Source: Clostridiales bacterium
Lineage (GTDB): Bacteria > Bacillota_A > Clostridia > Oscillospirales > Oscillospiraceae
DNA: 39,268 bases
Assembly (NCBI GenBank): GCA_022777455.1
Contig: JALFGI010000296.1
Location: 1 to 39,268 of the forward strand
Reading direction: 5' to 3'
Numbering within the stretch: position 1 is the stretch's first letter; each line of letters starts with the position of its first letter. The notes under the pieces are model-generated. The model was not told where the DNA came from and did no database searches. It saw only the letters and a list, made by a program, of their open reading frames with translations. Of the stretch, positions 3,671-37,934 are shown piece by piece. Both the position numbers and the translations under genes were made by a program.

Positions 3671-3710
3671 AAAGCACCCACGAGAATCTGGAGATTCAAG
3701 TGAGTGCTTT
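3671..3710 (-). terminator. minus-strand intrinsic terminator with T-run
   Basis: AAAGCACCCAC / GTGAGTGCTTT form an 11-position stem with one mismatch. Inside it AATCT and AGATT (3685-3696) form a second stem. On the minus strand it runs into TTTTTTATTT, a classic terminator ending. No minus-strand gene lies immediately upstream, so it would act on a non-coding transcript or as an attenuator of the ART-HD gene. Confidence 0.6.
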
Positions 3711-3823
3711 GCTTACTATGACAGTACTGCCATGGTATGCAGTTAATTGATTGATCCGGAGGGATCACCCCTCCATGAATGCGGACCATGTGCATCTATG
3801 AAAAGATGCAGTAGAACGCAAAA

Positions 3824-3904
3824 AGTGCCCGAAGACACAAAGACTTCGGGCACTGTAAGAAATCGGATACTGTGTTTGCTCTTGCAAAACTCTGATACTG
3901 TAAT
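3824..3904 (-). ncRNA. candidate small RNA or attenuated leader
   Basis: A consensus minus-strand promoter at 3911-3939 would start transcription near 3904. About 80 bases later lies a strong terminator: AGTGCCCGAAG (3824-3834) pairs with CTTCGGGCACT (3844-3854), an 11-bp perfect stem followed on the minus strand by TTTTTG. The product would be a short RNA with ACAGTATC occurring twice. If the terminator is read through, the transcript continues past two more hairpins (3671-3710, 3614-3648) into the ART-HD gene. Inferred from sequence only. Confidence 0.45.
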
Positions 3905-3910
3905 GATAGC

Positions 3911-3939
3911 ATTATAGCATAGTTGCGGGCATTAGTCAA
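3911..3939 (-). promoter_or_regulatory. sigma-A type promoter, minus strand
   Basis: On the minus strand TTGACT (3939-3934) is followed by exactly 17 bases and TATAAT (3916-3911). It points towards the hairpin-rich leader and the ART-HD gene. Confidence 0.7.
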
Positions 3940-3984
3940 TAGAATTTTGAATAACACGCCAAGGTGAAACTAAATATATAGCAC

Positions 3985-4013
3985 TTGAAAATGATCACAG
4001 AATTCAGTATAAT
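3985..4013 (+). promoter_or_regulatory. sigma-A type promoter for the M48/AAA/RiPP operon
   Basis: TTGAAA (3985-3990), 17 bases, TATAAT (4008-4013). It is the best plus-strand promoter upstream of the operon that starts at 4253 and leaves an untranslated leader of roughly 230 bases. The leader holds a GGGGATTCCC dyad near 4168 and another TTGACA at about 4152 without a well-placed -10. Confidence 0.7.
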
Positions 4014-4252
4014 TAATTAACACATATTTCGACATGTTTTTGCTTTACAATAGTCTTTGTTTACGCTTGTTTTTCAAAGATAGAGTCGTGGAAAAAAATT
4101 AACAAGTGGAAAATCTGAATAGGTGTATTTTATAGCATAGAAGATTCTGCTTGACAAAACTATTGCCGGGGATTCCCAATAAGCATTATACATTTCAAAG
4201 GCAAAAATCAGCAGATATTCATAGAGGCCATAGTCTATAAAGGGGAATGATT

Positions 4253-5080
4253 ATGCTTAGAAAACGAATCGTGTTAAGTGGATTGAAAGCAGATGACTAT
4301 ATTTCACCGGAGGAGAGCAGAATGCTACTTTCTGGGGATATGGCACTTGTTACAAAGGGTCTTGATATGCTCAATGATTTGTGTGTATCCTTGGTACAGC
4401 GAATAACCTTAGGTCGGCATGTTGAGATCACTCGGGAGACGGCACCGGATCTGTATCATATCATTGAGGATGTATGTACAATCCTGGATTACCAGCCAAT
4501 GCCAAACGTGTATGTCTGTCACCAACCTGCGCAGGAATTATTCTGTGCAGGTACAGATCGCAACCAGATTACATTTTCGGATTATCTTCTCGAGAAATTT
4601 GATGAAGATATGCTCTATTTCGCCTTCGGCGAGCTGATTGCAATGTTCAAGAGTGGACATACACGTTTGTCTACGGTATGCTACCTCATCCCTCCTATCC
4701 CTGAAGCATTACCTTTGAAGCTGCCTCTACTGGCATACCTCAGAGCTGCTGATCTAAGCTCTGATCGAGGCGGATTACTTGCTTGCCAGAGTTTTGCTGC
4801 GGCAGCAAAATGTATCCTGTGGGATGCTGGTATTCCAATGTCTGAAATGTCGGAAAAAAACGAAGACGAAATTATCCAGTTAGCACAGGATTATGTTGCG
4901 TCGGTCAAGGCTGTCTCTCCTGAATTGCTTGGAGAGATTGCTATATCCTGGAAAAAGTGGAATATGGAATCAATGCCGCATGCATATCGTCTTGAGAAGC
5001 TGCTGTCGTGGTACCAGAATGGATATGACGATATTGTAGCACAGTGGAAGCATGGTAGTGGAAGGACGGTGAGCGTATGA
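4253..5080 (+). CDS. catalytically dead M48-type peptidase homologue 1
   Basis: 275 residues from the ATG at 4253, chosen because AAGGGG lies seven bases upstream; the ATG at 4247 is only one base from it. The pattern NVYVCHQPAQELFCAGTDRN, DEDMLYFAFGELIAMFKSGH and AADLSSDRGGLLACQ follows the layout of M48 peptidases (strand, HExxH helix, second helix with E..ADR). Where the intact neighbour encoded from 5850 has GHEIGHIMLGH, this protein has FGELIAMFKSGH, so the zinc-binding histidines are gone. It is therefore probably a pseudoprotease, perhaps a partner or substrate-binding subunit. It overlaps the next gene by four bases, indicating coupled translation. No membrane segment is evident. Confidence 0.7.
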   Translation: MLRKRIVLSGLKADDYISPEESRMLLSGDMALVTKGLDMLNDLCVSLVQRITLGRHVEITRETAPDLYHIIEDVCTILDYQPMPNVYVCHQPAQELFCAGTDRNQITFSDYLLEKFDEDMLYFAFGELIAMFKSGHTRLSTVCYLIPPIPEALPLKLPLLAYLRAADLSSDRGGLLACQSFAAAAKCILWDAGIPMSEMSEKNEDEIIQLAQDYVASVKAVSPELLGEIAISWKKWNMESMPHAYRLEKLLSWYQNGYDDIVAQWKHGSGRTVSV

Positions 5081-5850
5081 TTGATGTGGGTACATACATA
5101 CATCCGGAAGAAAAGATTTTACGGGATAAAATCTTTCACTTTGCTGGAGTAAATAAGGCTCTGGATATCATAGTGGATGAAAATCTCGATGATATCAACC
5201 GCTTTATCTATAGCGCATCCTGTTTCCGGTTGCCCAGAGAGCATAAGGCCGTCCAGTATTTGGAAGAAGGATGCAAATTATTTGGCGTAGATATTGTTCC
5301 TCCGGCCTACTTGAAAAGAAGCTATTATGCAGATATCAGCTGCATGGGATACAATACCCCGGTTATTATTGTCCCGGACGTGCTTGTTCACAATGCACCA
5401 GATTCGCTTCTGCGGGGCAGAATGATGGCAGCTGCTGCATCCATCAAAGTGGGACATCAGAAGCTGTCGTTCCTGATATGGTTTATTGATAATTTCAAAG
5501 GTGTCATCAAAATTCCAGGAGTAGGGGTAGCATTGGATGCATTGCTGTATGAATGGATGAGAACGCAGGAATACACTCTGGACCGGGCCTTTTATCTTGC
5601 AACAAAGGATTCTGAATTGGCATTAAAAAATATCCTGTATGGTGAAATTCCAGATAAGATTTTGGATAATTTTCAATTTGGACCTAATGGAACCTTTGAC
5701 AAGCAAGTGGAAGACTTCAAAAAGCCGATCGGTGCGGCAGGTGCCGTGTCAAAAGTCGTTGGATATTTGCAAAAAGAAACCTGGATCCCGGAACGCTATT
5801 CTGAACTGAAAAAATACATGTACAGTAGTGGACTGTGCAAGGAGGGGTGA
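5077..5850 (+). CDS. catalytically dead M48-type peptidase homologue 2
   Basis: 257 residues, starting at an ATG that overlaps the preceding stop (ATGA). The layout again matches M48 proteins: NTPVIIVPDVLVHNAPDSLL, then RMMAAAASIKVGH in the place of the HExxH helix, and TQEYTLDRAFYLATKDSELA in the place of the helix with the third zinc ligand. No HExxH is present. A stretch near residues 127-155 (LSFLIWFIDNFKGVIKIPGVGVALDALL) is hydrophobic and could touch the membrane. Together with the genes on either side it makes a triplet of M48 paralogues in one operon, only the third being intact. The protein's job is unknown; a regulatory or scaffold subunit is the simplest reading. Confidence 0.65.
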   Translation: MIDVGTYIHPEEKILRDKIFHFAGVNKALDIIVDENLDDINRFIYSASCFRLPREHKAVQYLEEGCKLFGVDIVPPAYLKRSYYADISCMGYNTPVIIVPDVLVHNAPDSLLRGRMMAAAASIKVGHQKLSFLIWFIDNFKGVIKIPGVGVALDALLYEWMRTQEYTLDRAFYLATKDSELALKNILYGEIPDKILDNFQFGPNGTFDKQVEDFKKPIGAAGAVSKVVGYLQKETWIPERYSELKKYMYSSGLCKEG

Positions 5851-7439
5851 TGATGAAGACTATTCGTATGGAACGTTTCTTTTCCACAGACTTCCGTCAC
5901 CCTTTGGAATGTGAGGCTGAGTTAGGAATTCAGCACAACAGTTTTTATCAGGAAATATCTAAAATGTGGGGATCTGTAAAAATGCAGGTCAAGGCGCAGA
6001 CAGAGATGGCTTTGATTGGCTATCCGGTCACGGAGTATACACTCCCCAGAGTTCATCGGATTTATCAACAGGTACGTAAAACACTGCGGTGTGAAGAAAA
6101 CTATGGCTTGTTTGTAGACTATGGCTATGATCTGACAGCGGTTACCACCGGTTCAGAAAAAGATGGGCACATTATCCGACTGAACAGTGCTTGTGTGGAA
6201 GAATTGTCCGACCATGAGCTGGCAGCACTTTTGGGGCACGAAATCGGGCATATCATGTTAGGACACATTCAGAATCGGGAAATTCTGGATTCCATAGATG
6301 GGATTACGAAACTGCTCCCAGTGGCAAATGAAATGGTCAAAAACCAATTACTGAGCTATTATGGTAAGTGGATGTTGGCAACGGAATTATCCGCCGACAG
6401 GGTCAGCATGATTGCCGCCAACGGGATTGAGCCGGTAATGTCACTTCTGAAAAAGCAGGCAGGTGCAGATAACCTGAGCGATACCTATCTGGAGATGATG
6501 GATCAGGAAGTTATGCCGATCCCCAGCAAAATGGGTATGTACTATGTCCTGATGTCGGAGTCTATGCCGTATTTCGGATTGATTCTGCGTATGCAGGAGC
6601 TTAAAAGCTGGGCCTTCAGTGATGATTTACTGCAAAAGGCACCCTACTTGTATTATCTTTCACGCGCACAACTGCAGGACGCCCCCCTCGATAAGGCAGA
6701 TGAAGAACGGATGCTTCTGCATCGCAGGGCCGATAACGGGAATGTATATGCAGTTAAGCAATTGGCACAGATGTATTATCTGCATGACCAGTATGGCTTG
6801 CCTGCGTCTCCATCTACATTAGTTTCCCTGCTAGAAACAGCTGCATATAAGGGTGATGGTGCCTGTATGTATATGCTATCTCAGTGTATGCGCGTGGGAA
6901 TGGCTGGCCTGAAAAAGCAAGATGAACGCACACAAAATCAGCTGATCCGTGCAGCTGCAAGCCGCCCTCATCCCTCGCATATGCAGATTCCTAAGTGCAT
7001 CACGTATGCCAAGATAGAGAATCTTTCTCGGGTTCTTAACATGATTCATAAAGGGTCAGCAACCGGTTTGCACTGCATGGTGAATAAAGATAAAATTGGA
7101 GATCCAATCTGTGGCGAAATCGGTGAGGATATTCAGGACGCTTTTTGGATTCCAAAAGATGAATTGGTATATGCGGCAGAAGCACAGTGGACTGATGAGG
7201 GTGTATTTGGCGCAGCCATTACCCAGCGGGCCATTTACGGAAGAATTCCCGGTGAACAGTGGCCGGTTTGTCTTCCTTGGACGGAATTTATGAACAATAA
7301 TGTTATGCAACAGGAAATCGGAAGACAAAAACAATTTGTTTGCAATCATGTGGTATTCTATTCTTGCCCAAAGAAAATGAATGGTTCATTGGGAGAAGTT
7401 TTCATCAGAATGAAATCGCTATTCCAAAAGAGCAACTAA
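5850..7439 (+). CDS. M48-family zinc metallopeptidase with Sel1-like repeats
   Basis: About 529 residues. The zinc site is intact: ELAALLGHEIGHIMLGH and, about 65 residues later, LATELSADRVSMIAA supplying the third ligand. No N-terminal membrane helix is obvious, unlike HtpX. After the peptidase domain comes ADNGNVYAVKQLAQMYY and AYKGDGACMYMLSQ, typical of Sel1/TPR-like helical repeats that bind partners, and a C-terminal segment (GVFGAAITQRAIYGRI...CLPWTEF) like the small beta domains that follow many bacterial conflict proteins. AAGGAGGGG precedes two adjacent ATGs at 5850 and 5853. The first overlaps the previous stop (TGATG) and is used here; 5853 is equally spaced. Likely cleaves a peptide or protein made by the operon. 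Confidence 0.85.
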   Translation: MMKTIRMERFFSTDFRHPLECEAELGIQHNSFYQEISKMWGSVKMQVKAQTEMALIGYPVTEYTLPRVHRIYQQVRKTLRCEENYGLFVDYGYDLTAVTTGSEKDGHIIRLNSACVEELSDHELAALLGHEIGHIMLGHIQNREILDSIDGITKLLPVANEMVKNQLLSYYGKWMLATELSADRVSMIAANGIEPVMSLLKKQAGADNLSDTYLEMMDQEVMPIPSKMGMYYVLMSESMPYFGLILRMQELKSWAFSDDLLQKAPYLYYLSRAQLQDAPLDKADEERMLLHRRADNGNVYAVKQLAQMYYLHDQYGLPASPSTLVSLLETAAYKGDGACMYMLSQCMRVGMAGLKKQDERTQNQLIRAAASRPHPSHMQIPKCITYAKIENLSRVLNMIHKGSATGLHCMVNKDKIGDPICGEIGEDIQDAFWIPKDELVYAAEAQWTDEGVFGAAITQRAIYGRIPGEQWPVCLPWTEFMNNNVMQQEIGRQKQFVCNHVVFYSCPKKMNGSLGEVFIRMKSLFQKSN

Positions 7440-7474
7440 AATCGCAGTAATATCAAAGAGAAAGGCGTGTTATT

Positions 7475-7918
7475 ATGTCATTTGAAGGAAAGCTGTTAAC
7501 ATTTACCGCAGGAGTTGTAACGGGGGCTGCGGCATTGGCATTGGTGCAGGCGTTACAGGAGGAAAATACCGAAGACGGCAGCGTATTCACAAAGGAAAGT
7601 TTTGAAGAATTGATTCAGCAGCAGATTGTTCTGGCTGAAGTAAGCGGATCTCGCTTAGCTCCATGGTACCGGGAAATTCAGCAGCAGAGCAATAAGAACC
7701 TTGTTTTTTTCCTGTGCAAGCTTACGCAGGAAACCCAAACAATGCTGGGCATTATGAATGTGCCGGAAGAGCTGGATCGTTCCCATTATCTGGTGCAGGC
7801 TGCAGTTGATCGGGATGCCTGTTCCCCTGTCGCGATCCGACTGGTTTCCTTTGGCGCGATGGCAGAGAGTCTTGAAAAACTTTTTGCTGGTAAAGATTAT
7901 ATACTTTTGGAGGATTGA
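7475..7918 (+). CDS. membrane-anchored small protein A1 (paralogue of next gene)
   Basis: 147 residues with one N-terminal membrane helix (about residues 6-26, KLLTFTAGVVTGAAALALVQ) and a soluble C-terminal domain. It is clearly paralogous to the next gene. Shared elements are LAPWYRE / LASWFRE, LVFFLCK / PLFFLAK, VPEELDRSHYLVQAAVD / IPQELDTTHNLLQAVVD and PVAIRLVSFG / PVAMRMVSFG, ending with a hydrophobic strand after a F.G..D/N motif. I do not recognise a family. AAAGGCG precedes the ATG. The N-terminal anchor suggests it presents its domain at the membrane for the AAA ATPase or the peptidase. Confidence 0.75.
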   Translation: MSFEGKLLTFTAGVVTGAAALALVQALQEENTEDGSVFTKESFEELIQQQIVLAEVSGSRLAPWYREIQQQSNKNLVFFLCKLTQETQTMLGIMNVPEELDRSHYLVQAAVDRDACSPVAIRLVSFGAMAESLEKLFAGKDYILLED

Positions 7919-7921
7919 TAC

Positions 7922-8353
7922 ATGGATAGTATAAAATGGGCACTTGTCGTGGGTATTGGAATTGGTATCTGCGTAGGTGGGTGGTATTGGATCAAAAACC
8001 GAAATTTGAGCCAGACCGCGCTGTTTTGCTTCTCAGACTTGATTGCCAATCAAGAAGTTTTGGAAACAGCCAACGGACGTATGCTGGCATCCTGGTTCCG
8101 TGAAAATGCAGATGCTGCCAAGGGAACACCCTTGTTTTTCCTGGCAAAGCCTTGTGCTCAGACGGTGGAAATGTTTGGATTGGATACCATTCCTCAGGAA
8201 TTGGATACAACCCACAATCTTCTTCAGGCCGTGGTAGACGAGGAAAAAAAGCTGCCGGTTGCAATGCGTATGGTGAGCTTTGGAAGCATTGATGCAGACC
8301 TGGAAAAAGCTTTCAACGGACAGAATTTCCTTGTGGTAAAATCTGATACATAA
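7922..8353 (+). CDS. membrane-anchored small protein A2 (paralogue of previous gene)
   Basis: 143 residues. One membrane helix at about residues 6-24 (WALVVGIGIGICVGGWYWI) is followed by the same domain as the preceding gene, with roughly a third of positions identical by eye. GGAGG lies eight bases before the ATG, and only three bases separate it from the previous stop, so the two are surely cotranscribed and probably arose by tandem duplication. The two may form a heteromer, but nothing in the sequence fixes this. Confidence 0.75.
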   Translation: MDSIKWALVVGIGIGICVGGWYWIKNRNLSQTALFCFSDLIANQEVLETANGRMLASWFRENADAAKGTPLFFLAKPCAQTVEMFGLDTIPQELDTTHNLLQAVVDEEKKLPVAMRMVSFGSIDADLEKAFNGQNFLVVKSDT

Positions 8354-8398
8354 AAGAGCATTGCTCAATTACTTGTTATAAAAAGGCAGGCGTGAGAT

Positions 8399-8716
8399 AT
8401 GTGGTTTCGTTTATTTATGTTGGGTGCTGGATTGTTAATCGGTGCAGCAGTGATTATTACGATCGCAGAAACGGTAAATGAATTTATTACGAAATACAAT
8501 CTTCCGCGTCTGCTTCGTAATGCATTGGGGAAATCGAATGAGCAGAAAGTAAAAGAGATCCTTGGAGATGTCCTCAACGCACAGGTAAAAAACCTGGACA
8601 AGACCACGATTACGATTGCTGTTTTTGAAGAAAACGGTAATGAAGCTGTAGATGTGCAGCTTACAGGCTCTGGCGTCAGCGGTCTCTTGCAGGTGGGCAC
8701 ATCGATTACCGGATAA
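8399..8716 (+). CDS. small membrane-anchored protein B1
   Basis: 105 residues: an N-terminal Gly/Ala-rich membrane helix (about 4-25, RLFMLGAGLLIGAAVIITIA), a charged helical linker, then KVKEILGDVLNAQVKNLDKT and a short beta-rich tail (TITIAVFEENGNEAVDVQLT). No recognised family. A weak GGCGTGAG ribosome site precedes it. Its architecture (anchor, charged helix, small acidic beta segment) is shared with the protein encoded from 9102, so the pair may again be distant paralogues. Confidence 0.65.
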   Translation: MWFRLFMLGAGLLIGAAVIITIAETVNEFITKYNLPRLLRNALGKSNEQKVKEILGDVLNAQVKNLDKTTITIAVFEENGNEAVDVQLTGSGVSGLLQVGTSITG

Positions 8717-8732
8717 TTTAGGAGGAAGTAAA

Positions 8733-9101
8733 ATGTCAATGTGGAATCATGTGGAGGATGCTCTATATAAAAACATATTCGGAAAGAATGAAGTAAACCA
8801 GCAGTCATTCTCGCTGCTGGATGCATGGCAGTTTTTCATTGAATGTGCACAGGAGAATCCGATGGTTCAGTATTGTGCACTGGCGATCGAACGCAAGGGT
8901 GACCAGTATCTTATCACGCAGGCTATGATGAGAGAAGTTTCGGACGAATATAAGGTTATCCGCCTGGATCGTGAGAATGCGATGGCGCGTCAAGTGTATG
9001 CATATAACCTCAGTAATGACCTGATTGAGTATATGGGCGGAAAGAACTTGCGTATGATGGATTTGAGAGTACTCAGCGCACAAACGAAGGAGGGTATCTA
9101 A
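8733..9101 (+). CDS. soluble 122-residue protein of unknown function
   Basis: The start at 8733 is set by AGGAGG seven bases upstream; longer reading frames have no ribosome site. The protein (begins MSMWNHVEDALYKNIFGKNE) has no membrane helix and no cysteine cluster beyond two isolated Cys. It has a mixed alpha/beta look with the segment QYCALAIERKGDQYLITQAM. No family recognised. It lies between the two small membrane-anchored genes and is followed directly by the next ATG with no gap, so it is translationally linked to it. Confidence 0.65.
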   Translation: MSMWNHVEDALYKNIFGKNEVNQQSFSLLDAWQFFIECAQENPMVQYCALAIERKGDQYLITQAMMREVSDEYKVIRLDRENAMARQVYAYNLSNDLIEYMGGKNLRMMDLRVLSAQTKEGI

Positions 9102-9476
9102 ATGCTTGAAGTGTTATTGCTGATTGGTATAGTCGCGTTAGCGGCGCTGGTCGTCACATTCGTGTTTTTGACCCTCAGAAATGTTATTGAACGCGTTAAG
9201 AAAAAGATCATCGAAAAAAGAGTAAAACGCGTTATAGTGGAGCACGTCAGAAAAGTAGAAGAGGAAGCAAACCGCAACAAAAAGAAGATAACAAACCTGG
9301 ATGATTTGGAGAATCTTGAAAAACTGTTTGGTAAGCAAGGTCTTGTGGAAGCAGAGGTCAACGCCGATGACACAGTGGATGTTGACAGTGTTCGCATTCT
9401 CCAAACCGATAAAATCGATGATGCCCTGAAAAGAGCATTGGAACAGGAAGATGGCTGCATGATAATTGGTAAGTAA
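9102..9476 (+). CDS. small membrane-anchored coiled-coil protein B2
   Basis: 124 residues. A hydrophobic N-terminus (about 3-24, EVLLLIGIVALAALVVTFVF) leads into a very basic amphipathic stretch (VIERVKKKIIEKRVKRVIVE) and a predicted coiled coil, then an acidic C-terminal segment (EAEVNADDTVDVDSVRILQT). The ATG abuts the TAA of the previous gene. The strongly basic helix next to the membrane may bind phospholipid heads or nucleic acid. No family recognised; it resembles B1 in layout only. Confidence 0.65.
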   Translation: MLEVLLLIGIVALAALVVTFVFLTLRNVIERVKKKIIEKRVKRVIVEHVRKVEEEANRNKKKITNLDDLENLEKLFGKQGLVEAEVNADDTVDVDSVRILQTDKIDDALKRALEQEDGCMIIGK

Positions 9477-9522
9477 CAAGCTGAATCGGTTTGTAATACC
9501 GTCAGCTTAAGAGGTGAGAGTA

Positions 9523-10893
9523 ATGGTACAAATTCAGGTTATTTTTCTGTTTACTTCTAAACGGAATTTCCCTCCGGATGTAAGGGTGCAAGTTCAGCAA
9601 ACGGTTCAGCAGATCTACTGTAACGTTTTTAAACGTTCTGCTCATGAGGTGTCGGTAACGCTGGAAGACTCTGCACCAAGCAGCATTGCAAAAGATATTA
9701 TTTTGGCGATTCAGACGGATAAGCAGACCATTAATGAAGGCGTGTTTCGCGGAGCCTTTGCTAAGCAGGTGGCAGCTCAACTGTCGAAAATCCCAGCACT
9801 CACGCGATATGGCTTCTCAGGGGAAGTAGCCACAAAAAACAATTTGGCTCAGGTTTGTGAATCTGAGCAGTCTGATGCCCATGATAATTCCGATAGGGCA
9901 TTGAAGGACGCTGCCACAGACTATCGTTTGAAAGCGGCACAATACAAGGCACAGCCTCCCCGTTACCGCTTTGATCAGGTAGCGCTGCCGAAGGAAAAGG
10001 TTGATGAGATCGAACTTGCACTCGATACGATCTTGTACGAGCGGCAGGTGTTCAAAGAATGGGGTCTGTATGCCATTCAGCCGAACCCCAAATGCGCACT
10101 GAGCTTCTACGGTCCTCCTGGCACAGGCAAGTCCATGCTGGCAGAGGCAATTGCCAGCAAGGTGGGTAAGAAGATTATTTCTGTCAGCTATGCGGATATT
10201 GAAAACAAGTATGTCGGTGAAGGTCCCAAAAATGTGAGCGCGGTTTTTCTTGCTGCCCAGGAACAGGATGCGGTCCTGTTTATTGACGAGGCAGAATCCC
10301 TGCTTTCCAAACGGCTTGTGAATGTATCCGATCCCTCCGGACAGGCAATGAATTCTATGCGCAGCCAGATGCTGATTTCTTTGGAAAACTTTCATGGAAT
10401 TGTCGTCTTTGCAACCAATATGGCGGTCAACTATGACAGCGCTTTCGTGTCCAGAATCAAGCATATCTTTATCGACTTCCCGGATGAAGAAACACGGGCG
10501 ACAATTTGGAAAAAGCATTTGTATCCCTTTGATGAGCAGAGCAAAAGCCTGCGCATTCCCCTTGCTTCCGATGTAGATGTCATTGAGCTGGGCCAGAAAT
10601 ATGTCCTGTGTGGCAGAGATATTCGCAATACCGTGGTGGAAGCCTGTGTGGATGCTCGCCGCAATGGCGCAGCAACGGTAGACCAGGCCTGCCTGTGCCG
10701 CGCAGCGGAAAACACATTGAGGCGCCAGACAGAGCTGATGCAGGAAGAAGATCAAACGGCGATCAAACACAAGACGCGGACAGGCTATAAGGAAGTAGAG
10801 GTTCCTCGTGAGGTAAAGGAGAAAATTGCTGAGAATCTCAATAAACAATTAGCCGAGAAAAAGCAGAAAGGAGATCCCTATGAATCAGTCTAA
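9523..10893 (+). CDS. AAA+ ATPase (FtsH/VPS4-like core, no protease domain)
   Basis: 456 residues from the ATG at 9523 (AGGTGA five bases upstream; an in-frame GTG at 9514 has none). Residues 1-150 are an unfamiliar N-domain. The AAA+ core has Walker A GPPGTGKS (197-204), Walker B VLFIDEAES (D255, E256), a sensor-like FATNM, and a C-terminal helical lid. The C-terminal tail is highly charged (EVPREVKEKIAENLNKQLAE). No HExxH follows, so it is a stand-alone remodeller or unfoldase, perhaps supplying the operon's separate M48 peptidase. Its last 14 bases overlap the start of the peptide gene, a tight link that suggests stoichiometric or co-translational coupling. Confidence 0.88.
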   Translation: MVQIQVIFLFTSKRNFPPDVRVQVQQTVQQIYCNVFKRSAHEVSVTLEDSAPSSIAKDIILAIQTDKQTINEGVFRGAFAKQVAAQLSKIPALTRYGFSGEVATKNNLAQVCESEQSDAHDNSDRALKDAATDYRLKAAQYKAQPPRYRFDQVALPKEKVDEIELALDTILYERQVFKEWGLYAIQPNPKCALSFYGPPGTGKSMLAEAIASKVGKKIISVSYADIENKYVGEGPKNVSAVFLAAQEQDAVLFIDEAESLLSKRLVNVSDPSGQAMNSMRSQMLISLENFHGIVVFATNMAVNYDSAFVSRIKHIFIDFPDEETRATIWKKHLYPFDEQSKSLRIPLASDVDVIELGQKYVLCGRDIRNTVVEACVDARRNGAATVDQACLCRAAENTLRRQTELMQEEDQTAIKHKTRTGYKEVEVPREVKEKIAENLNKQLAEKKQKGDPYESV

Positions 10894-11047
10894 CAAAACC
10901 ATTCACGCAGCACCCATCCATTTTCAGCGGAGTAATGTACTCAATGCTTACAGAAACGGTAATTACAGTGGTCTGCCGGTAGCTGGCTACTGCGAAAAAA
11001 AATGTATCCAGTGTGATGTAAGCACCAAAAAAGTAAGCTACAATTGA
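10880..11047 (+). CDS. candidate RiPP precursor peptide (55 aa, Cys-rich C-terminus)
   Basis: A 55-codon ORF between the AAA+ gene and a radical SAM/SPASM gene. AAAGGAG lies six bases before the ATG, a strong site. The N-terminal ~35 residues (MNQSNKTIHAAPIHFQRSNV...) are polar and leader-like. A Gly/Pro turn (YSGLPVAG) leads to a core-like end with three cysteines, YCEKKCIQCDVSTKKVSYN, in the spacing C-x3-C-x2-C. Size, position directly before a peptide-maturase-type radical SAM gene, and the Cys cluster all fit a precursor whose cysteines receive thioether bonds. A zinc-binding mini-protein is the main alternative. No family recognised. Confidence 0.7.
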   Translation: MNQSNKTIHAAPIHFQRSNVLNAYRNGNYSGLPVAGYCEKKCIQCDVSTKKVSYN

Positions 11048-11051
11048 TTTT

Positions 11052-11111
11052 ACAGGGGAAGTGCGGCAACACAAGCTATTGCATGTAAGCCGCACTTCCC
11101 TGTATTGTTTT
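11052..11111 (+). terminator. terminator/attenuator between peptide and maturase genes
   Basis: A 15-bp stem with one bulged G (left arm 11052-11067, right arm 11089-11103) and a 21-base loop is followed by ATTGTTTT. It lies four bases after the peptide stop and just before the ribosome site of the radical SAM gene. Partial read-through would give much more peptide mRNA than maturase mRNA, a common arrangement in RiPP operons. Confidence 0.75.
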
Positions 11112-11129
11112 CAGAGGAGTTAGTTTCAG

Positions 11130-12557
11130 ATGAGCACAGATGCTTACGCGAAAATCTTTTCTTCATCTTCCGGGCAATGGTACGTGTACATCACGCAGAC
11201 AAACGAAATTCTGTCTGTCGACAAAGATTGGTTTGATTCGCTGGATGAGTACACCAGAGAACTTGTAGTTCTGGATGAACTGACAAAGGCTGGATTGCTT
11301 TCAGACCAGATTCCTGATCAAATACAGTGGGGTCGATCAAAAGAGGAATATCAGCGTCAGATAGCGAAACGGATTCCAGCACTCACGTTGGAAATGACTC
11401 AGCAATGTTCTCTCCGCTGCAGCTACTGCATTTATTCGGGAAATTACGATGGTGTGCGTGTGCATCAGCCTTGTGACATGGATCTTTCTCTGATTACCGG
11501 TGCCATCGACTATTTTGCGGAGCATAATGCAGACTGTCCCACAGCAGATATTTCTTTTTATGGCGGCGAGGCACTGCTGCAGTTTGACAAGATTCGTTAT
11601 GCTGTGGAATATGCAAGAGAAAAAATCCGGCACAAGCCTCTTCGTTTTCATGTGTCCACCAATGGTACAACACTAACTTCGCCTGTACAACAATGGCTGT
11701 CACAGAATGAGGATGTTACGGTAGCAATCACACTCAATGGACCAACGCATGATGTTTACCGCAAATTCCCTTCGGGAGCTGGCAGTCTCGATGTGATCAC
11801 GCAACATCTGCAGGAAATAAGAGAGAATTATGCTAATGTTTGGGACAGAATCGATTTTCTGGCCAACATTTCAAGCTATTCAGAATTGCTTGCTTTGCGG
11901 AAATACTATTTGGAAAATGTGGGAAAGCCGCCGCTACTGATCAGTGGAATTGAAAAAGAAGGCGGAAACGATTTTATTCAGACAATAATTGGGGAAGGAT
12001 TCCAAAATGGGGCCGAACAGAAGGTTTCTCAGAATCTTTTTATATCCAGATATGATGAATACTTGAAGCCATTCTATCAAGCTAATGTAGAATCCATGTC
12101 TACCAGATCAATGGGAAACTGGACAGATTGTGCCATCGCACCCTGCTGTATCCCGTTTACGCATAACCTGTTTGTCTCCGCGAAAGGCGAACTGTCATTC
12201 TGTGAAAGAACAACACCGAAACAGGAATATGGAAACGTCGTAGATGGAATCAGTACCACTGCCGTAGAAAAGGCAATGGACCAGGCAATGTCCGTTTTTA
12301 ACAGCAAATGCAGATTGTGCTGGGCGCAAAGACTGTGTGACGTTTGCTACCAGTATATACGTGAGGATTCTTCTGGTGTGGCGTATATATCAGAATCATT
12401 TTGCGAACAAGCTAAGTGCGGGATCATCAAGGATCTTATCCTTTTTTGTGATATTTCCGAAGAGAATCCATCTTTGGTTGAAAAAATCCGCCTTGAGCAT
12501 GAGTGCAAGTTAAAGCGGCACCAGGAAGAGAAAATGGGATGTCATCCAGGTGGATAA
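11130..12557 (+). CDS. radical SAM/SPASM peptide maturase
   Basis: 475 residues. An N-terminal ~80-residue region (YVYITQTNEILSVDKDWFDS...) resembles the leader-binding segments of peptide maturases. The radical SAM cluster motif is C93-x3-C97-x2-C100 (CSLRCSYC) and a downstream ISFYGGEALLQF fits the GGE motif. The C-terminal SPASM part has many cysteines: CAIAPCC, ELSFCERTTP, SKCRLCWAQRLCDVC and SFCEQAKC, enough for two auxiliary iron-sulfur clusters. Such enzymes form thioether or C-C crosslinks on ribosomal peptides. The AGAGGAG site is about nine bases before the ATG. The obvious substrate is the 55-residue Cys peptide just upstream. No transporter gene is visible nearby. Confidence 0.9.
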   Translation: MSTDAYAKIFSSSSGQWYVYITQTNEILSVDKDWFDSLDEYTRELVVLDELTKAGLLSDQIPDQIQWGRSKEEYQRQIAKRIPALTLEMTQQCSLRCSYCIYSGNYDGVRVHQPCDMDLSLITGAIDYFAEHNADCPTADISFYGGEALLQFDKIRYAVEYAREKIRHKPLRFHVSTNGTTLTSPVQQWLSQNEDVTVAITLNGPTHDVYRKFPSGAGSLDVITQHLQEIRENYANVWDRIDFLANISSYSELLALRKYYLENVGKPPLLISGIEKEGGNDFIQTIIGEGFQNGAEQKVSQNLFISRYDEYLKPFYQANVESMSTRSMGNWTDCAIAPCCIPFTHNLFVSAKGELSFCERTTPKQEYGNVVDGISTTAVEKAMDQAMSVFNSKCRLCWAQRLCDVCYQYIREDSSGVAYISESFCEQAKCGIIKDLILFCDISEENPSLVEKIRLEHECKLKRHQEEKMGCHPGG

Positions 12558-12590
12558 AATTAGAGCGCAATAGAATCTCGGACAAAAACA

Positions 12591-12614
12591 GGGAGTGCTG
12601 CATGCAGCACTCCC
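12591..12614. terminator. 24-bp perfect palindrome, convergent-gene terminator
   Basis: A perfect 24-base palindrome lies between the radical SAM gene (plus) and the HTH-like gene (minus). On the minus strand it is followed by TGTTTTTG, a fair terminator; on the plus strand the T-run is absent. It most likely ends the minus-strand transcript and may slow the plus-strand one. The bases from 12615 to 12762 hold nothing else I can identify. Confidence 0.6.
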
Positions 12615-12762
12615 ACAATAAATTGGTTCAGATATCTTGAATCTATAACATTACAATCGGTTATTACGGTATACTGAAATTCATTTCCGCCGCGATTGTC
12701 ATTAGAAATGATGATTTGAGTACTATAGAAGACGGCATTCACTGGGGCAGAACGATTCTTTG

Positions 12763-13992
12763 TCAAAGATTTGTATTTGGCAGCGGATCAGAGGAATACA
12801 TCTTGATCAGGATTTCCTGCAACCGCATATCACTTTCCCAAAGATCACCAGAAGAAATGCAGAAAAGAATCATCCAGTCAAAGGGATTGCGGGGGTCCAA
12901 TTTAGGAAAACCACAGGCATTCAGCATGGCATCCAATCGTGTATACAGGCTGAGAAAAACATCGTCAGCGGTTTCTAGATCATCGAACTCATCAAAATCA
13001 CTATCGGTTCCATCTGTAGCTAAAAACAAAAGAATCAGAGTCTTCCGAGAAACATCCTGTTTCCGGCTCTCTATCTTTGACAAGGAATACTCATCAGGCC
13101 AGTTTTGCCGGATATTTCGCTGAATGGGGGAGAAAAACTCTGCTGATTTTGCCTTGCCACGGGTTTGCACGGGAACGAATTTTCGGTACATGTAGGTTTC
13201 CAGAATATCCCTGACAGTGATGGGCTCCGCTTTATGGGGACCTACATCTCCGTCGACAGAGCTTTTGACTTTTTTCTTTTCTTCTCTGGTCATCTCTTCA
13301 AAAAGAGCTTCCATGCCCAGTTCGGAATAGCCTCTTTTCAAAAGTCCCATATATTGGTCGAACAACTGGTAGGCAGTATTATGGAATGTGCCCAGGCGAC
13401 TTCGCTCTTCCTGCAGAAAAGCAAGCAAGGCATCTTCTTCCAGATGCAGAACTTTCTGAATCCGGTCATTAATCTCAGCGGTATAGCTACTGGGGGCTCC
13501 TGTTTTTTCATTTTTGGGGAGTTCCATAGCAGCATGGCTCCGTTCCAGTAAATCCATTGCCTGCTCAGGGCTATAGTTATGCAGGATCGTATAGCACCAT
13601 ACGATATCCTCCGGATTACGCCAATGGATGCTTTCCCCCGTAGCATACCCCAGGAATTCATTTGCCTGGGGTAAAGTTAAATGCAGTATCTGGCAAAGAA
13701 TGTATGCATCCTGCTTACTGATGTTCTGCGTTTTCCCGTTGAGCCAGTTTCGCACTTTCCTGTCGATCGAGTCAAGATTATCCTCCGGAAACCACTGCTG
13801 CAGCCCCCTTACTAGGTGACTTTTGAGTTCTGGTTCCGGTGAGAATTTACGTAGCACATCGCCGAATGTTCTAAAATGATCATAACTGAGCAAAAGCTCT
13901 ATGGCATCATCTGTGCAATTGAGTTTTTGGGTCTTGTTAAATAAATCTCTGGTGAGAACAGTCATGTTATTCAACGTACGATTCACCCCCAT
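12763..13992 (-). CDS. helix-turn-helix-like regulatory protein (~400 aa)
   Basis: About 400 residues. Near residues 80-120 the sequence VRNWLNGKTQNISKQDAYIL followed by CQILHLTLPQANEFLGYATG has the layout of an Xre/lambda-repressor-like helix-turn-helix. The rest is helical, acidic and unfamiliar. The promoter (14001-14029) ends so near the ATG at 13992 that this start would be almost leaderless. An in-frame TTG at 13974 with GGGGGTGA about eight bases upstream, or the ATG at 13965, may be the true start. The gene is divergent from the kinase-NACHT gene and its promoter spacer contains a dyad, so autoregulation is likely. Role inferred, family not recognised. Confidence 0.7.
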   Translation of the reverse strand: MGVNRTLNNMTVLTRDLFNKTQKLNCTDDAIELLLSYDHFRTFGDVLRKFSPEPELKSHLVRGLQQWFPEDNLDSIDRKVRNWLNGKTQNISKQDAYILCQILHLTLPQANEFLGYATGESIHWRNPEDIVWCYTILHNYSPEQAMDLLERSHAAMELPKNEKTGAPSSYTAEINDRIQKVLHLEEDALLAFLQEERSRLGTFHNTAYQLFDQYMGLLKRGYSELGMEALFEEMTREEKKKVKSSVDGDVGPHKAEPITVRDILETYMYRKFVPVQTRGKAKSAEFFSPIQRNIRQNWPDEYSLSKIESRKQDVSRKTLILLFLATDGTDSDFDEFDDLETADDVFLSLYTRLDAMLNACGFPKLDPRNPFDWMILFCISSGDLWESDMRLQEILIKMYSSDPLPNTNL

Positions 13993-14000
13993 TTTTGGAT

Positions 14001-14029
14001 ATTATAGCATGGCACATGCTGTTTTTCAA
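14001..14029 (-). promoter_or_regulatory. promoter of the HTH-like gene, minus strand
   Basis: On the minus strand TTGAAA (14029-14024), a 17-base spacer and TATAAT (14006-14001). The hexamers match those of the promoter at 3985-4013 exactly. Confidence 0.75.
14006..14020. promoter_or_regulatory. dyad operator candidate inside the promoter spacer
   Basis: AGCATG-GCA-CATGCT is a perfect 6+6 dyad lying between the -10 and -35 of the HTH-like gene. A protein bound there would block the promoter, so the divergent HTH-like protein itself is the natural candidate. No second perfect copy was seen near the two plus-strand promoters. Confidence 0.5.
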
Positions 14030-14105
14030 TCTGATATTTCCGTAGGAAAAGTATAAAAGATACATATGCATCAGGGCATATATGGGCCTTAATCCGGGAT
14101 AAGAC

Positions 14106-14133
14106 TTGAAAATCAGGATAGCAATGGTATAAT
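14106..14133 (+). promoter_or_regulatory. promoter of the kinase-NACHT gene
   Basis: TTGAAA (14106-14111), 16 bases, TATAAT (14128-14133), about 90 bases before the GTG start at 14225. Confidence 0.7.
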
Positions 14134-14224
14134 GATGAAAACATATCCGTTGGGAAACAGAAACCAAAAAGCTTTGATTGTGTAATGTATTCTAAAGGCA
14201 GGAAAGACAAAGGAGGAATCTTTT

Positions 14225-17200
14225 GTGGATCATCGATTACCACTGAAAGTTCATACCGTTCTTGCCTTTGAAGGCATGGCTTGTCACATTGAAGAAGTAA
14301 TTGGACAAGGATCTAATGCCATTGTTTATAAGGGCTGGTATCAGGACAATCTAAATTCGGAGCTCCACCACCATGTACTGGTGAAAGAACTGTTTCCGTT
14401 TCATCCCCAAAAGGGGATCTTTCGCGCCGAGAGTGGTCATCTTGTCATAGAACCCGAAGCAGAAGAATTGTGGAAAACGCATAGGCAAAGTTTTCAAGTT
14501 GGAAATAAGATCCATCTTCGGCTGCTGTATGACCATCCTGATGTGATGGTCATGGGAGCAAATCTCAACAGTTTTTCATGCAACAGAACGTTGTATTCTG
14601 TTCTGGGATATACTGGTGGCAGAAGTCTTCAGACAGAACTGAACAGGAGCAATGTTTCATTGCGGCAGACTGCCCAACGGATGATCCGTCTGTTGGATGC
14701 GCTGGAAGCATTTCACAAAAGTGGTTATCTGCATTTGGACATTAGCCCTGACAACATCATGCTGGTAGGTCAGGAAGATCAGGAAAGCATTTTTTTGATT
14801 GATTATAACAGTGCTAGAGAAGTAGGCTCCCACAACGACAGTTACTTAAGCTGCAAATCTGGGTACTCTGCGCCGGAAGTCAGTACCGGAAATATGGATG
14901 CCATAGGCTTTGCGTCGGATCTTTTTTCTGTAGCTGCCGTGTTCTTCCGCTGCATTATGGGCAGGAGCTTGACTCTGGCAGAGATGTTGCAGTCCAAAGC
15001 TCCGGATTGTCAAGACAGTTTACTGGTAAAAGATTGCCCCCAGACGGTCACAGCTATGGTGGGTACCATTATGAGAAAAGGTCTGCATACTCTGTCCAAG
15101 CGGCGCTATCAGAGTATCGGGCAGATGCGGCAGGCATTTCAGGAATTGATGGACCGGATCGACTGTGTGGGTGTTACCCATTGGTCACTATGGGAAAACG
15201 GGAGAAGAAGTGTAGAGGAACTGATTCAGATCAATCCCTCTCTGCGGTATCTGAAAGACGAGAAGAAGCTGTATCCCATCCGTCTAGAACGGGAATGTAG
15301 CATGTCACTGGAAAACTATTTGGACAATCTTCTCTCACCGGGGGGGGAGTCCGCAATGATTCTGGCACAGGGCGGTATGGGTAAGACAACGATGCTGCTT
15401 CATATTGCCATGCTCCAGGGAAAGCGGTACTCTACAGCAACTCCGGCAATGTTTTATATTTCCCTGAACGGTTGGGATAAGGCAGATTCTAAGTATATCC
15501 ACAGCCAAATTCTGATGCGTTTGCGCTTCAAAAAAGAAGAAAACACTTTCGATAGCGCCATGTATGCCCTGCAAAAGCTATTGGAACAGCCAATTGAAAC
15601 AAAGCAGGGAGAAATCCCTTGCGTTTTGTTGCTTCTGGATGGTTTGAATGAGGTTCGGGGAGATATTGCGCCTCTGGTGCAGGAGATCGACGAACTGAGT
15701 AAGATGGCGGGTGTACGGATCCTGGCAACATCCAGAAGCGAAATTCCGGAAGTGCAGCTTGAGGCTGTAAGTTTGATGCCGTTGGATGTAGAGGACATTG
15801 AGTCAGCACTGGGAAAAAATGGCCTGTTGATTCCCCAGCAGCAGGGCATCATCCAGCTGCTAAGAACGCCGCTGATCCTGTCTATTTACATTCAGGCCAG
15901 CGCAGGTGGCAGGCAGCTGACTGTTCGTAATGTAGAAGAGCTGATGAAAGCCTACATGGACTCCCTGATGGAGAAGGAGATCGGTCAATTACCCGAGGAG
16001 TCTCCCCTGCGATGGCAGATCGATGTGGCGCTGAATTATGTGCTACCGGCTATTGCCATCGAAGCAAAACGATTGAACGCATCCCTTTCCCGTGAGCAGA
16101 TACTGAAGGTGTTAACCCGCTGTTGGAATACCTTGATGTCCCGGAAATTCCGAAAAGTGTATCCTCGCTGGATCGGGCATAGTCCTGACATACGTGCGGG
16201 TACAAAAACTCCGGAAGAATGGTTTGGTGTAGTAGTTGACAGTCTTCTTTGGCAGCGATTGGGATTGCTTACCAAAGGGGATATCGGTGGCTATCGGATC
16301 TTCCATCAAGCGGTGGCAGAATATTTTGCAAGTTCAAGAATTCCGATGGTGAACAGCAAAGGTTGGCTCACTATTCTGATTGCACTTCTGTTTTGTGCAG
16401 TAGCTGTTACTGGGTATTGTCATTACGAAGCTGATTTCAAGCAGAAAGCAGCAGAAGCGCAAATCCAGGAGGCCTTGGAACTGGGAGCAACTGGATATGT
16501 GGAATACGGTGAACTGTATCGACAACTCTATGATTTGATAAAGGCCGCCATATGCGGTGATTCCGAGTACTTTGGAATATACTACGACCGCGTCCTGACA
16601 GCAATGCAAAGTGAAGAGAAGTGGACACCTTCTGAAGAGACAGAAGGTCAGCAGATAGAACGCACCAACGACTACGATCAGCTACAGATCACCTGGGGAA
16701 ATCAAGATGCGCCATATGAATATGAGATTCTGGTGGATCTTTTTGACTATCCGGATGAACGTTCTGCATTTTATGTAAAACAACTTCCGCTGCTGAAAAC
16801 CTGGATGGAATCTGAAACGATCCGGCGCAGGAATCCAGACTTTGCCGATGCACTGTTGGCTCTTCTGGAAGCGGATGCAAATCTTGCCGCAGAAATGTAT
16901 CACCGGGCGATTGGTATTCACTTATCCGGCACTGATTCGGTCTGGTTGGGAAATATGAATGCGTTGGTAGCCATGATTCCAGATTTGGATTCTCACCGGG
17001 ACACTTCAACTCAGGAAGATCGAAGGCAGAAATTAAGTACCTTGCGATCTCTGTATTTGAAAGCAAACAGTGAGTTTGAAGCAGTGCGGTCTAGGTTGAA
17101 TGCGCATATTCGGAATATGATAACGGACATGCAGACATACTCAATAGACTTGCAAACAGAATTAGAACAAATCAGCGAACAAATGAAGAAGAGCAACCAT

Positions 17201-17305
17201 TTGGCTGAAGCTGCCGGTATTGACTCTATTATCACAGCACTAAAAGAAAGGCAAATCGCAGAAAAGGACCTCTATTCATATATTATGAATACAAATCAGG
17301 AGTAA
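14225..17305 (+). CDS. Ser/Thr kinase - NACHT NTPase - membrane protein
   Basis: 1026 residues from a GTG with AAAGGAGGA seven bases upstream. Residues ~20-310 are a protein kinase: glycine loop GQGSNAIVYKG (27-37), Lys54 in VLVKEL, catalytic HLDISPDN (170-177), metal-binding DYNSA (D193, in place of DFG) and SAPEV (215-219). Residues ~375-600 are a NACHT/STAND NTPase with Walker A GGMGKTT (383-389) and Walker B LLLLDGLNEV (D472). A membrane helix follows at about 714-733 (WLTILIALLFCAVAVTGYCH), then a ~290-residue helical C-terminal region with a late coiled coil. This combination resembles large signalling or anti-phage STAND proteins, with the C-terminus a possible extracytoplasmic sensor. 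The lipoprotein gene follows. Confidence 0.88.
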   Translation: MDHRLPLKVHTVLAFEGMACHIEEVIGQGSNAIVYKGWYQDNLNSELHHHVLVKELFPFHPQKGIFRAESGHLVIEPEAEELWKTHRQSFQVGNKIHLRLLYDHPDVMVMGANLNSFSCNRTLYSVLGYTGGRSLQTELNRSNVSLRQTAQRMIRLLDALEAFHKSGYLHLDISPDNIMLVGQEDQESIFLIDYNSAREVGSHNDSYLSCKSGYSAPEVSTGNMDAIGFASDLFSVAAVFFRCIMGRSLTLAEMLQSKAPDCQDSLLVKDCPQTVTAMVGTIMRKGLHTLSKRRYQSIGQMRQAFQELMDRIDCVGVTHWSLWENGRRSVEELIQINPSLRYLKDEKKLYPIRLERECSMSLENYLDNLLSPGGESAMILAQGGMGKTTMLLHIAMLQGKRYSTATPAMFYISLNGWDKADSKYIHSQILMRLRFKKEENTFDSAMYALQKLLEQPIETKQGEIPCVLLLLDGLNEVRGDIAPLVQEIDELSKMAGVRILATSRSEIPEVQLEAVSLMPLDVEDIESALGKNGLLIPQQQGIIQLLRTPLILSIYIQASAGGRQLTVRNVEELMKAYMDSLMEKEIGQLPEESPLRWQIDVALNYVLPAIAIEAKRLNASLSREQILKVLTRCWNTLMSRKFRKVYPRWIGHSPDIRAGTKTPEEWFGVVVDSLLWQRLGLLTKGDIGGYRIFHQAVAEYFASSRIPMVNSKGWLTILIALLFCAVAVTGYCHYEADFKQKAAEAQIQEALELGATGYVEYGELYRQLYDLIKAAICGDSEYFGIYYDRVLTAMQSEEKWTPSEETEGQQIERTNDYDQLQITWGNQDAPYEYEILVDLFDYPDERSAFYVKQLPLLKTWMESETIRRRNPDFADALLALLEADANLAAEMYHRAIGIHLSGTDSVWLGNMNALVAMIPDLDSHRDTSTQEDRRQKLSTLRSLYLKANSEFEAVRSRLNAHIRNMITDMQTYSIDLQTELEQISEQMKKSNHLAEAAGIDSIITALKERQIAEKDLYSYIMNTNQE

Positions 17306-18684: not shown

Positions 18685-18718
18685 TTTGGTAAAAATAAAA
18701 AGAAAGGAGTCAATGTTT

Positions 18719-37770: not shown

Positions 37771-37771
37771 C

Positions 37772-37846
37772 GGTCCCTTCGTCTAGTGGTCAGGACATCA
37801 GACTCTCAATCTGAAAACGTGGGTTCAACTCCCGCAAGCATCACCA
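37772..37846 (+). tRNA. tRNA-Glu(CTC)-like with defective acceptor stem
   Basis: Anticodon stem TCAGA/TCTGA with loop CTCTCAA gives anticodon CTC. D-arm, T-arm (GTGGG-TTCAACT-CCCGC) and encoded ACCA are good. The acceptor arms GGTCCCT and AAGCATC have two mismatches and one G-T pair. The 3' arm is one base from that of the tRNA-Asp further along the array (AGGCATC), suggesting recombination between neighbours. Confidence 0.75.
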
Positions 37847-37849
37847 AAT

Positions 37850-37924
37850 GGAGCGTTGGTGTAAATGGTAACACGTCCGCCTCCCACGCGGATGACGCCG
37901 GTTCAAGCCCGGTACGTTCCTCCA
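37850..37924 (+). tRNA. tRNA-Gly(CCC)
   Basis: Acceptor GGAGCGT/ACGTTCC (one G-T pair), D-arm GTGT/ACAC, anticodon stem TCCGC/GCGGA with loop CTCCCAC (anticodon CCC), T-arm GCCGG-TTCAAGC-CCGGT and encoded TCCA. Confidence 0.92.
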
Positions 37925-37934
37925 TAACAAAAAT

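Follow-up and report, generated by a model that had tools for sequence, protein, structure and literature searches.

The 39,268-nucleotide contig JALFGI010000296.1 of a Clostridiales bacterium (assembly GCA_022777455.1), the whole of which stretch we call the window, raises the question of what a radical S-adenosylmethionine (SAM) enzyme and a small Cys-bearing peptide are doing in an operon with M48-fold proteins, small proteins and an AAA+ ATPase. The operon occupies positions 4247–12557 of the + strand and comprises eleven genes, with short gaps or overlaps between neighbors, in the order M48a, M48b, M48c, S1, S2, S3, S4, S5, AAA, the 55-residue peptide and the radical SAM protein (rSAM). 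We propose, as an explanation with an even chance of being right, that these genes encode an AAA+ complex, tethered to the membrane and without a protease, that has acquired a peptide modified by the rSAM, this product remaining inside the cell as a partner of the AAA protein. For this proposal we relied on the protein families, the gene set, the peptide family, the leader motif and the loss of zinc ligands, all of them features of the sequence; the chemistry, the place of action and the role are what we infer.

That the peptide acts as the substrate of the rSAM is very probable because of its family, its leader motif, the hairpin that precedes the maturase gene and a fused homolog at another locus (L007). 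A search with three query peptides gave 22 candidates and 17 clusters at E ≤ 10, all 17 being at E ≤ 1.7e-10; fifteen of these are additional to the query peptides themselves from L001, a Roseburia metagenome-assembled genome (MAG), and L002, a Lachnospiraceae MAG, and the peptide of cluster P0244 is 95% identical to that of the window, which latter peptide matched no NCBIfam family. Aligned in 19 rows (18 distinct), the peptides have a variable N-terminal half and a conserved C-terminal core, bearing CX3CX2C, of two types: that of the window, GYCEKKCIxC[DE][VI][SN]TKKVSYN, and a second, mostly ATACEKQCIxCNVNSQKLGRTRS. Residues C38, E39, C42, I43 and K51 are invariant in the 19 rows, C45 is present in 18, and an [LF]N motif stands 13 or 17 residues ahead of the first core Cys in every row. 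Between the window and the ten distant clusters, identity in the leader falls to as little as 13–23% and in the core to 33–48%; such conservation of a core would be more in keeping with a cofactor or a signal than with an antibiotic, a point similar to the one made in PMC8326336 on the spread of the SCIFF (six Cys in forty-five) peptides.

The gap between the peptide and rSAM genes folds into a hairpin—absent from an earlier note on this DNA—with energies of -32.7, -26.2 and -19.6 kcal/mol (z = -5.7, -3.9 and -7.2) in the window, L001 and L002, respectively; none of 200 dinucleotide shuffles folded as well in any of the three, and mononucleotide shuffles agreed. The three hairpin sequences are unlike one another. 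An intergenic hairpin of this kind is usually read as a partial terminator favoring the precursor over the maturase.

As to the enzyme, its cluster motif CX3CX2C (C93, C97 and C100) is invariant in 36 aligned rows, as are G353, C358, C394, C397, C403, C406 and C425, which residues we take to form the SPASM pattern (G-x4-C, CX2CX5CX2-3C, C), there being no SPASM model among the Pfam matches. Such an enzyme is expected to need reduction and SAM. The best-scoring named family is CcpM (TIGR04068), at 242.1 bits over residues 13–444 and below the cut-off of 500, and the closest solved relative by sequence is CteB (127.8 bits), with which the AlphaFold2 model (predicted local distance difference test, pLDDT, 93.3) shares the order of RiPP (ribosomally synthesized and post-translationally modified peptide) recognition element (RRE), radical SAM and SPASM domains. 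The RRE is assigned by homology to CteB only, residues 9–231 of the rSAM profile matching CteB 18–245 and the fold match beginning at residue 4; CteB, according to PMC8326336, bears an N-terminal RRE. The resemblance of the rSAM to CteB is suggestive of thioether formation.

We scanned the genome contigs of 84,980 species with the 36-row rSAM alignment, which scan relies on exact peptide patterns, so that members may be missed, and obtained 61 loci. The gene set of the window recurred in identical order, by tblastn, in two of them, L001 and L002; the peptides there were located between AAA and rSAM by reading the open reading frames (ORFs), and S3 and S5 of L002, without a tblastn match, were assigned from the positions of their ORFs and from an alignment. 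Across these three loci the rSAMs are about 41–42% identical, and the peptide, the rSAM, the AAA+ protein, the M48 triplet and the small proteins occur together in all three fully readable loci of the rSAM clade. Judged by equal contig sizes, 15 of the 36 database rows of that clade (the window's included) apparently share a contig with one of the 120 AAA matches listed, versus none of the 42 rows outside the clade; the 14 further pairings concern the AAA and rSAM genes, M48 and small proteins lying outside that comparison. Among the 397 genomes of L002's family, 17 have an rSAM match at E ≤ 1e-60, the sole clade-level one being that of L002 itself (615 bits), followed by 435 bits (the type of L006) and then by at most 277. 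Synteny with L001 and L002 rules out chance neighbors, and by these comparisons the gene set is a rare and conserved one of some Clostridia. In viral contigs the rSAM and M48c queries had no confirmed match and AAA had three, L071 among them; the rSAM in a plasmid collection and the AAA protein in a phage collection had distant relatives only, all under 60% identity.

The earlier note had named the parts of this operon, all of which were found where it had placed them on the + strand, and its overlapping start and stop codons are present between M48a and M48b (4 bases) and between AAA and the peptide gene (14 bases). Its count of ten genes must be raised to eleven, since S4 (122 residues) had been overlooked. 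The unified system that it envisaged, whose linkage across genomes it had asked about, holds for the three full loci and for this rSAM clade but does not extend to the wider rSAM family, whose sister enzymes occur without AAA or M48 genes. A single promoter had also been proposed: what is present upstream is a consensus match only, and promoter-like sites in positions 3700–14300 number 25, against 18.7 ± 3.9 in shuffled sequences. The four membrane-anchored small proteins turned out to be five small proteins, among which S3 and S5 have a clear membrane segment, S2 one that is weak in the window and clear in L001 and L002, S1 a marginal one and S4 none. The triplet of M48 proteins, finally, needs qualification: only three of the ten operon proteins scanned—all but the peptide—passed a Pfam cut-off, namely M48c, AAA and the rSAM.

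M48c is by score (PF01435, 34.7 bits against a cut-off of 20.3) and by its HExxH, the HEIGH at residue 129, an M48 peptidase, and its downstream Glu is intact in the window. M48a and M48b have neither a Pfam family nor an HExxH: M48a, weakly HtpX-like, carries GELIA where HExxH is expected and D for the third ligand E, and M48b is M48-like solely through hhalign (97% probability to M48a, 57% to M48c). Because ten of the eleven M48-fold proteins of five loci (the window, L001, L002, L077 and L078) lack HExxH, the exception being the window's M48c, most of these proteins look inactive. In M48c itself the first zinc His is replaced by Tyr in L001 (YEIGH) and by Gly in L002 (GEIGH), and the downstream E/D..D region is better kept than HExxH, which suggests that the fold was kept and the catalysis lost. 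The M48-likeness in L077 and L078 rests on three-row profiles (E 4e-07 to 7e-04), and Pfam does not name the L078 protein. With full loci as few as three, the clade of the window may well have a working M48c.

The AAA protein classifies as a classical AAA+ unfoldase, with PAN/Rpt among its Foldseek matches and an AlphaFold2 pLDDT of 83.6. G200, T201, G202, K203, D255, E256, R311, K229, Y230 and G232 are invariant in 33 rows, and we take them to be the Walker A and B motifs, the arginine finger and the aromatic pore loop (K229, Y230 and G232); from what is known of the family, a protein with these motifs should thread polypeptides. Its N-terminal domain (9523–9855) is predicted as strand-helix-strand-strand-helix-strand, with pLDDT mostly above 85, and had no significant match in Pfam or Protein Data Bank (PDB) sequence searches; for a tautomerase/MIF-like fold, suspected from that topology, those searches gave nothing significant, the Foldseek rows displayed being all AAA proteins.

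With the 33-row AAA profile we searched overlapping sets of 392, 391, 62, 11, 6 and 357 genomes, in the large ones of which up to four candidates were scored per genome. Matches at E ≤ 1e-100 came from ten genomes, two of them L001 and L002. In the other eight (L074, L075, L076, L101, L110, L111, L112 and L113) the fetched stretches contained no M48, peptide or rSAM profile match, though L074 and L110 end at a contig edge upstream, where M48 genes are possible, and L101 has an unrelated BATS-domain rSAM. At least one relative of S1–S5 lies beside AAA in seven of these eight (S4 only in L111; none in L113), which arrangement would be an accessory module. Because the AAA gene is thus found without M48, peptide or rSAM matches in eight genomes, AAA plus small proteins is, by gene content, a separable core, and it may be older than the full set. 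An integrase (L111) and a serine recombinase (L112) occur near the core, and TerB-like genes adjoin it in L101 and, below the Pfam cut-off, in L075. More distantly, L077 (7821–10808) and L078 (8040–10966) combine an AAA protein with a protein of 212–218 residues, an apparent membrane protein and an M48-like protein that lacks HExxH, HSP70 and DnaJ genes following the AAA gene group in L078; the distant AAA matches L102, L114 and L071 have no M48, peptide or rSAM match nearby.

The membrane tether would come from the small proteins. In the window the N-terminal Kyte–Doolittle maxima are 1.75 for S1, 1.72 for S2, 2.49 for S3 and 3.10 for S5; S2 reaches 2.85 in L001 and 2.55 in L002, and S1, at 1.46 and 1.79 there, is marginal in all three loci and no clearer than a segment within the M48c of L002 (1.70). 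S4, AAA, the peptide, the rSAM and the M48 proteins other than L002's M48c stay below 1.6. Because basic residues follow the hydrophobic segment in S2 and S5, the soluble part of both probably faces the cytoplasm, under the positive-inside rule. Kinship among the small proteins holds for S1 and S2 only: S4 was rejected as a relative of that pair (hhalign below 1%), and S3 as a relative of S5 (11%).

Outside the clade, sister rSAMs adjoin other genes, some of them lying downstream of genes for larger Cys-tailed proteins. In L003, L004 and L007 a large ATPase and a HEMRH protein of about 300 residues precede the sister rSAM, the ATPase being HerA-like by PADLOC in L003 and by Pfam DUF87 in L007 and alike in appearance in L004; this is a second ATPase/zincin-like/rSAM arrangement. 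The L003 and L004 tails end in QCARxSxGTQNYCxFxGxGR, and that of L007 in ACDKLCLKCKVEVGFRT, which is the CX3CX2C of the free peptide fused to an HExxH protein; the hidden Markov model (HMM) of the peptide matches this tail, its LN motif included (i-E 7e-05, three proteins having been searched). In L005 a 302-residue protein ending in LNPKNNIVGYCIFAQWSNGHVVV is encoded directly ahead of the sister rSAM. An [LF]N stands 10–17 residues ahead of the first tail Cys in four of six candidates (L003, L004, L005 and L007) versus 16 of 179 background genes; three of the four are homologous, which leaves two independent cases, and the range was picked after the tails were seen. A regular-expression scan of 53 loci for a C-terminal CX3CX2C in ORFs adjoining the rSAM found L001, L002 (under two locus numbers) and L007, together with five further loci with unlike ORFs. 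The AAA query had no match at E ≤ 1e-20 in the genomes of L003, L004, L005, L007 and L016, and one 32% match, in a 679-residue frame, in that of L006. As separate observations, L005 (324–5368) has, upstream of its rSAM, a pair of related proteins together with a third that bears a Cys tail at its C-terminus, which proteins presumably resemble C39-type peptidases, Pfam naming neither of the two tested; and in L006 (Anaeromicropila populeti, 9441–9938) an EF-hand protein with a Cys-bearing C-terminus precedes a related rSAM.

Put together, our proposal is that the rSAM/SPASM enzyme would bind the peptide leader at its [LF]N motif through the RRE-like N-terminal domain and would form at least one Cys thioether in the C-terminal CX3CX2C core, Glu39 and Cys42 of the invariant ExxC being our guess for acceptor and donor. 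The modified peptide would then stay inside the cell and serve the AAA complex as ligand, subunit or effector. S3, S5, S2 and perhaps S1 would hold that complex at the membrane, and the M48-fold proteins, the majority of which are unable to act as zinc peptidases, would be its scaffold; the intact M48c of the window may also trim the leader. The gene set points to a modified peptide with an intracellular task and not to an antibiotic, and the likeliest purpose, by analogy with other AAA/metallopeptidase/rSAM-peptide modules, would be a function in stress or conflict (defense). A more specific version, in which the cross-linked peptide is a permanent subunit or ligand of the AAA motor on a dead M48 scaffold, and in which the superclade places cross-linked Cys tails on intracellular proteins, those of protease fold among them (L003, L004, L005 and L007), as a post-translational switch and not as a route to natural products, seems to us rather doubtful.

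Several observations count against this proposal. Full reading was possible for three loci only; 21 of the 36 rSAM rows have no contig of equal size among the AAA matches listed, and six of the 17 peptide clusters pair with no AAA or rSAM match by that measure, although each cluster is represented by its longest contig only and unpaired rows are therefore no proof of separation. The P0255 peptide lacks the third Cys. PADLOC weakly matches the rSAM with the viperins (28.3 bits) instead of with a peptide maturase. Among the sisters, the L003 and L004 tails have another Cys spacing and no significant match to the peptide HMM, L006 has IN in place of [LF]N, L016 has no recognizable substrate adjoining its rSAM, and the L007 copy looks broken, its rSAM ORF ending at 11062 and the tblastn match reaching 11313; a close relative of that enzyme, P0167, has 459 residues. 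The M48c of the window is intact, so proteolysis may matter there, and the CX3CX2C of the peptide could bind an iron-sulfur cluster instead of being cross-linked.

The first of these last two points leads back to the model of the earlier note, a classical AAA-protease in which the AAA+ protein feeds polypeptides to M48c; the peptide would then be one of the substrates, or a regulator. The HEIGH and downstream Glu of the window and the invariance of the pore-loop and Walker residues agree with such an AAA-protease; as a general mechanism, though, it is not supported, given the YEIGH and GEIGH of L001 and L002 and the absence of HExxH from the other eight M48-fold proteins examined, and we consider it unlikely. 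The second point becomes an explanation of its own if the peptide serves as a partner that binds metal or an iron-sulfur cluster, its CX3CX2C holding a [4Fe-4S] cluster in the way that identically spaced Cys do in radical SAM enzymes; the absence of the third Cys in P0255, the fit of the [LF]N leader and RRE-like domain to a substrate and the other Cys spacings of the L003–L006 tails make this improbable to us. Equally improbable to us is a secreted RiPP, bacteriocin or signal, matured by the rSAM and M48c with AAA and small proteins serving immunity or export: the rSAM is indeed nearest to CcpM, a maturase of Cys-rich peptides, and the HEIGH is intact in the window, but by eye there is no transporter in the operon or in the L001 and L002 stretches, the core is conserved despite the divergence of the rSAMs, the L001 and L002 copies of M48c have lost HExxH, and the AAA core is also found where the peptide is not.

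Plausible, if short of an even chance, is a defense or stress conflict system in which the AAA complex senses phage or damage and frees the modified peptide as a toxin or alarm, which explanation overlaps with our own proposal. The AAA gene is patchy (at E ≤ 1e-70, in one of 62 genomes of one genus and one of 11 of another), recombination genes lie near the operon (a recombinase fragment at 1617–2318) and near the AAA core of L111 and L112, the AAA protein is weakly similar to IetA (PADLOC, 71.1 bits), kinase, macro-domain and ADP-ribosylglycohydrolase genes are nearby, and the logic is that proposed in PMC7159879 for the FxSxx and FtsH-ternary peptide modules. Opposed to this, PADLOC, run on all the operon proteins but S2 and the peptide, gave nothing for M48a, M48c, S1, S3, S4 and S5, M48b scoring marginally and AAA and the rSAM weakly, and neither MoxR nor vWA is among the Pfam matches of ten of the eleven proteins. 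The peptide core, moreover, is conserved, and toxins under attack often vary.

Among known systems, the VMAP/FtsH ternary (FxSxx-COOH) modules come nearest, in which, as PMC7159879 describes them, a zincin peptidase, a small protein with a conserved C-terminal peptide and variable N-terminal part, a radical SAM/SPASM enzyme and an AAA+ protein stand together. The operon differs from them in lacking MoxR and vWA, in scoring 42.7 bits with FxsB (cut-off 370), in having a Cys core instead of FxSxx and M48 proteins mostly without HExxH, and in its five extra small proteins, so that, by analogy, it is akin to those modules in logic and not a member. The SCIFFs, widespread in Clostridia according to PMC8326336, share with the operon the RRE-rSAM-SPASM architecture of CteB; the operon peptide, however, has three Cys versus their six in forty-five, and the rSAM scores 98.9 bits with TIGR03974 (cut-off 425). 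PMC8326336 also provides a precedent in QhpD/QhpC of quinohemoprotein amine dehydrogenase, where an rSAM makes thioethers in a polypeptide that forms part of an enzyme and is no antibiotic. From that system the operon differs by 106.9 bits with TIGR03906 (cut-off 453) and by having no amine dehydrogenase among its Pfam matches, and from CcpM by the score given above and by a peptide that matches no NCBIfam family. IetAS resembles it in a classical-type AAA ATPase adjoining a protease-type partner, IetS being subtilisin-like, but the operon AAA scores 60.9 bits on the IetA model (cut-off 510) and no subtilisin is among the Pfam matches. Full-text literature searches, whose coverage mostly excludes subscription papers, found no title on this gene set.

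If the peptide does act on an intracellular AAA+ machine, radical SAM peptide chemistry would have a part to play outside antibiotics and redox cofactors, and there would be a testable model for the conserved, SCIFF-like peptides of Clostridia. The operon also offers a defined set of pseudo-peptidases paired with a motor, and the Cys-tail rule, [LF]N and then Cys, could be used to find rSAM targets on larger proteins.

Table 1. Features of the operon and of related loci (window positions unless a locus is named).
Feature	Position	Strand	Basis
Promoter-like site TTGAAA-17-TATAAT, upstream of operon	3985..4013	+	Consensus match only, 11/12
M48a, 277 aa, M48-like without HExxH	4247..5080	+	HtpX-like, 29.9 bits; alignments with L001/L002 and M48c
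M48b, 257 aa, M48-like without HExxH	5077..5850	+	hhalign to M48a 97%, to M48c 57%
M48c, 528 aa, M48 domain, HEIGH, long C-terminal extension	5853..7439	+	Pfam PF01435, 34.7 bits
S1, 147 aa, marginal N-terminal hydrophobic segment	7475..7918	+	Homologs in L001 and L002
S2, 143 aa, S1 paralog, N-terminal hydrophobic segment	7922..8353	+	hhalign S1–S2 99.9%; hydropathy
S3, 105 aa, N-terminal membrane segment	8399..8716	+	Hydropathy
S4, 122 aa, without hydrophobic segment	8733..9101	+	Hydropathy
S5, 124 aa, N-terminal membrane segment, then basic residues	9102..9476	+	Hydropathy
AAA+ ATPase, 456 aa, without protease domain, own N-terminal domain	9523..10893	+	ATG at 9523; Pfam AAA, 91.2 bits
Putative precursor peptide, 55 aa, core GYCEKKCIQCDVSTKKVSYN	10880..11047	+	17 homologous clusters; alignment
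Hairpin between peptide and rSAM genes	11051..11104	+	-32.7 kcal/mol, z -5.7
Putative radical SAM/SPASM maturase, 475 aa, RRE-like N-terminal domain	11130..12557	+	Pfam, 44.9 bits; CcpM, 242 bits, under cut-off
Large HerA-like ATPase, 107–115-aa protein and Cys-tailed HEMRH protein before rSAM	L003 5334-9973; L004 5359-9967; L007 5330-9980

As to the surroundings of the operon, tblastn of the fetched loci gave no match (1e-6) to a 409-residue neighbor protein and no alignment over 300 residues to the neighboring kinase, shorter kinase alignments not being displayed. The latter, a 1026-residue Ser/Thr kinase (14225–17305), has a NACHT-like part below the Pfam cut-off and, by eye, a membrane segment, and its kinase part matches PD-T4-6 of PADLOC (76 bits). 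Upstream of the operon, 1617–2318 encodes, on the - strand, the C-terminal part of a serine recombinase, with a zinc ribbon and DUF4368 but no resolvase domain, which may be what is left of a mobile element. At 37374–38088 there are five tRNA genes (Gly, Glu, Gly, Asp and Gly). A macro-domain protein and two ADP-ribosylglycohydrolases are encoded at 738–1265, 18686–19684 and 19674–20885; the L002 copy likewise has two homologs nearby, with 47% identity to the second, and an EcsC gene lies near the operon both in L002 and in the window (31191–32018).

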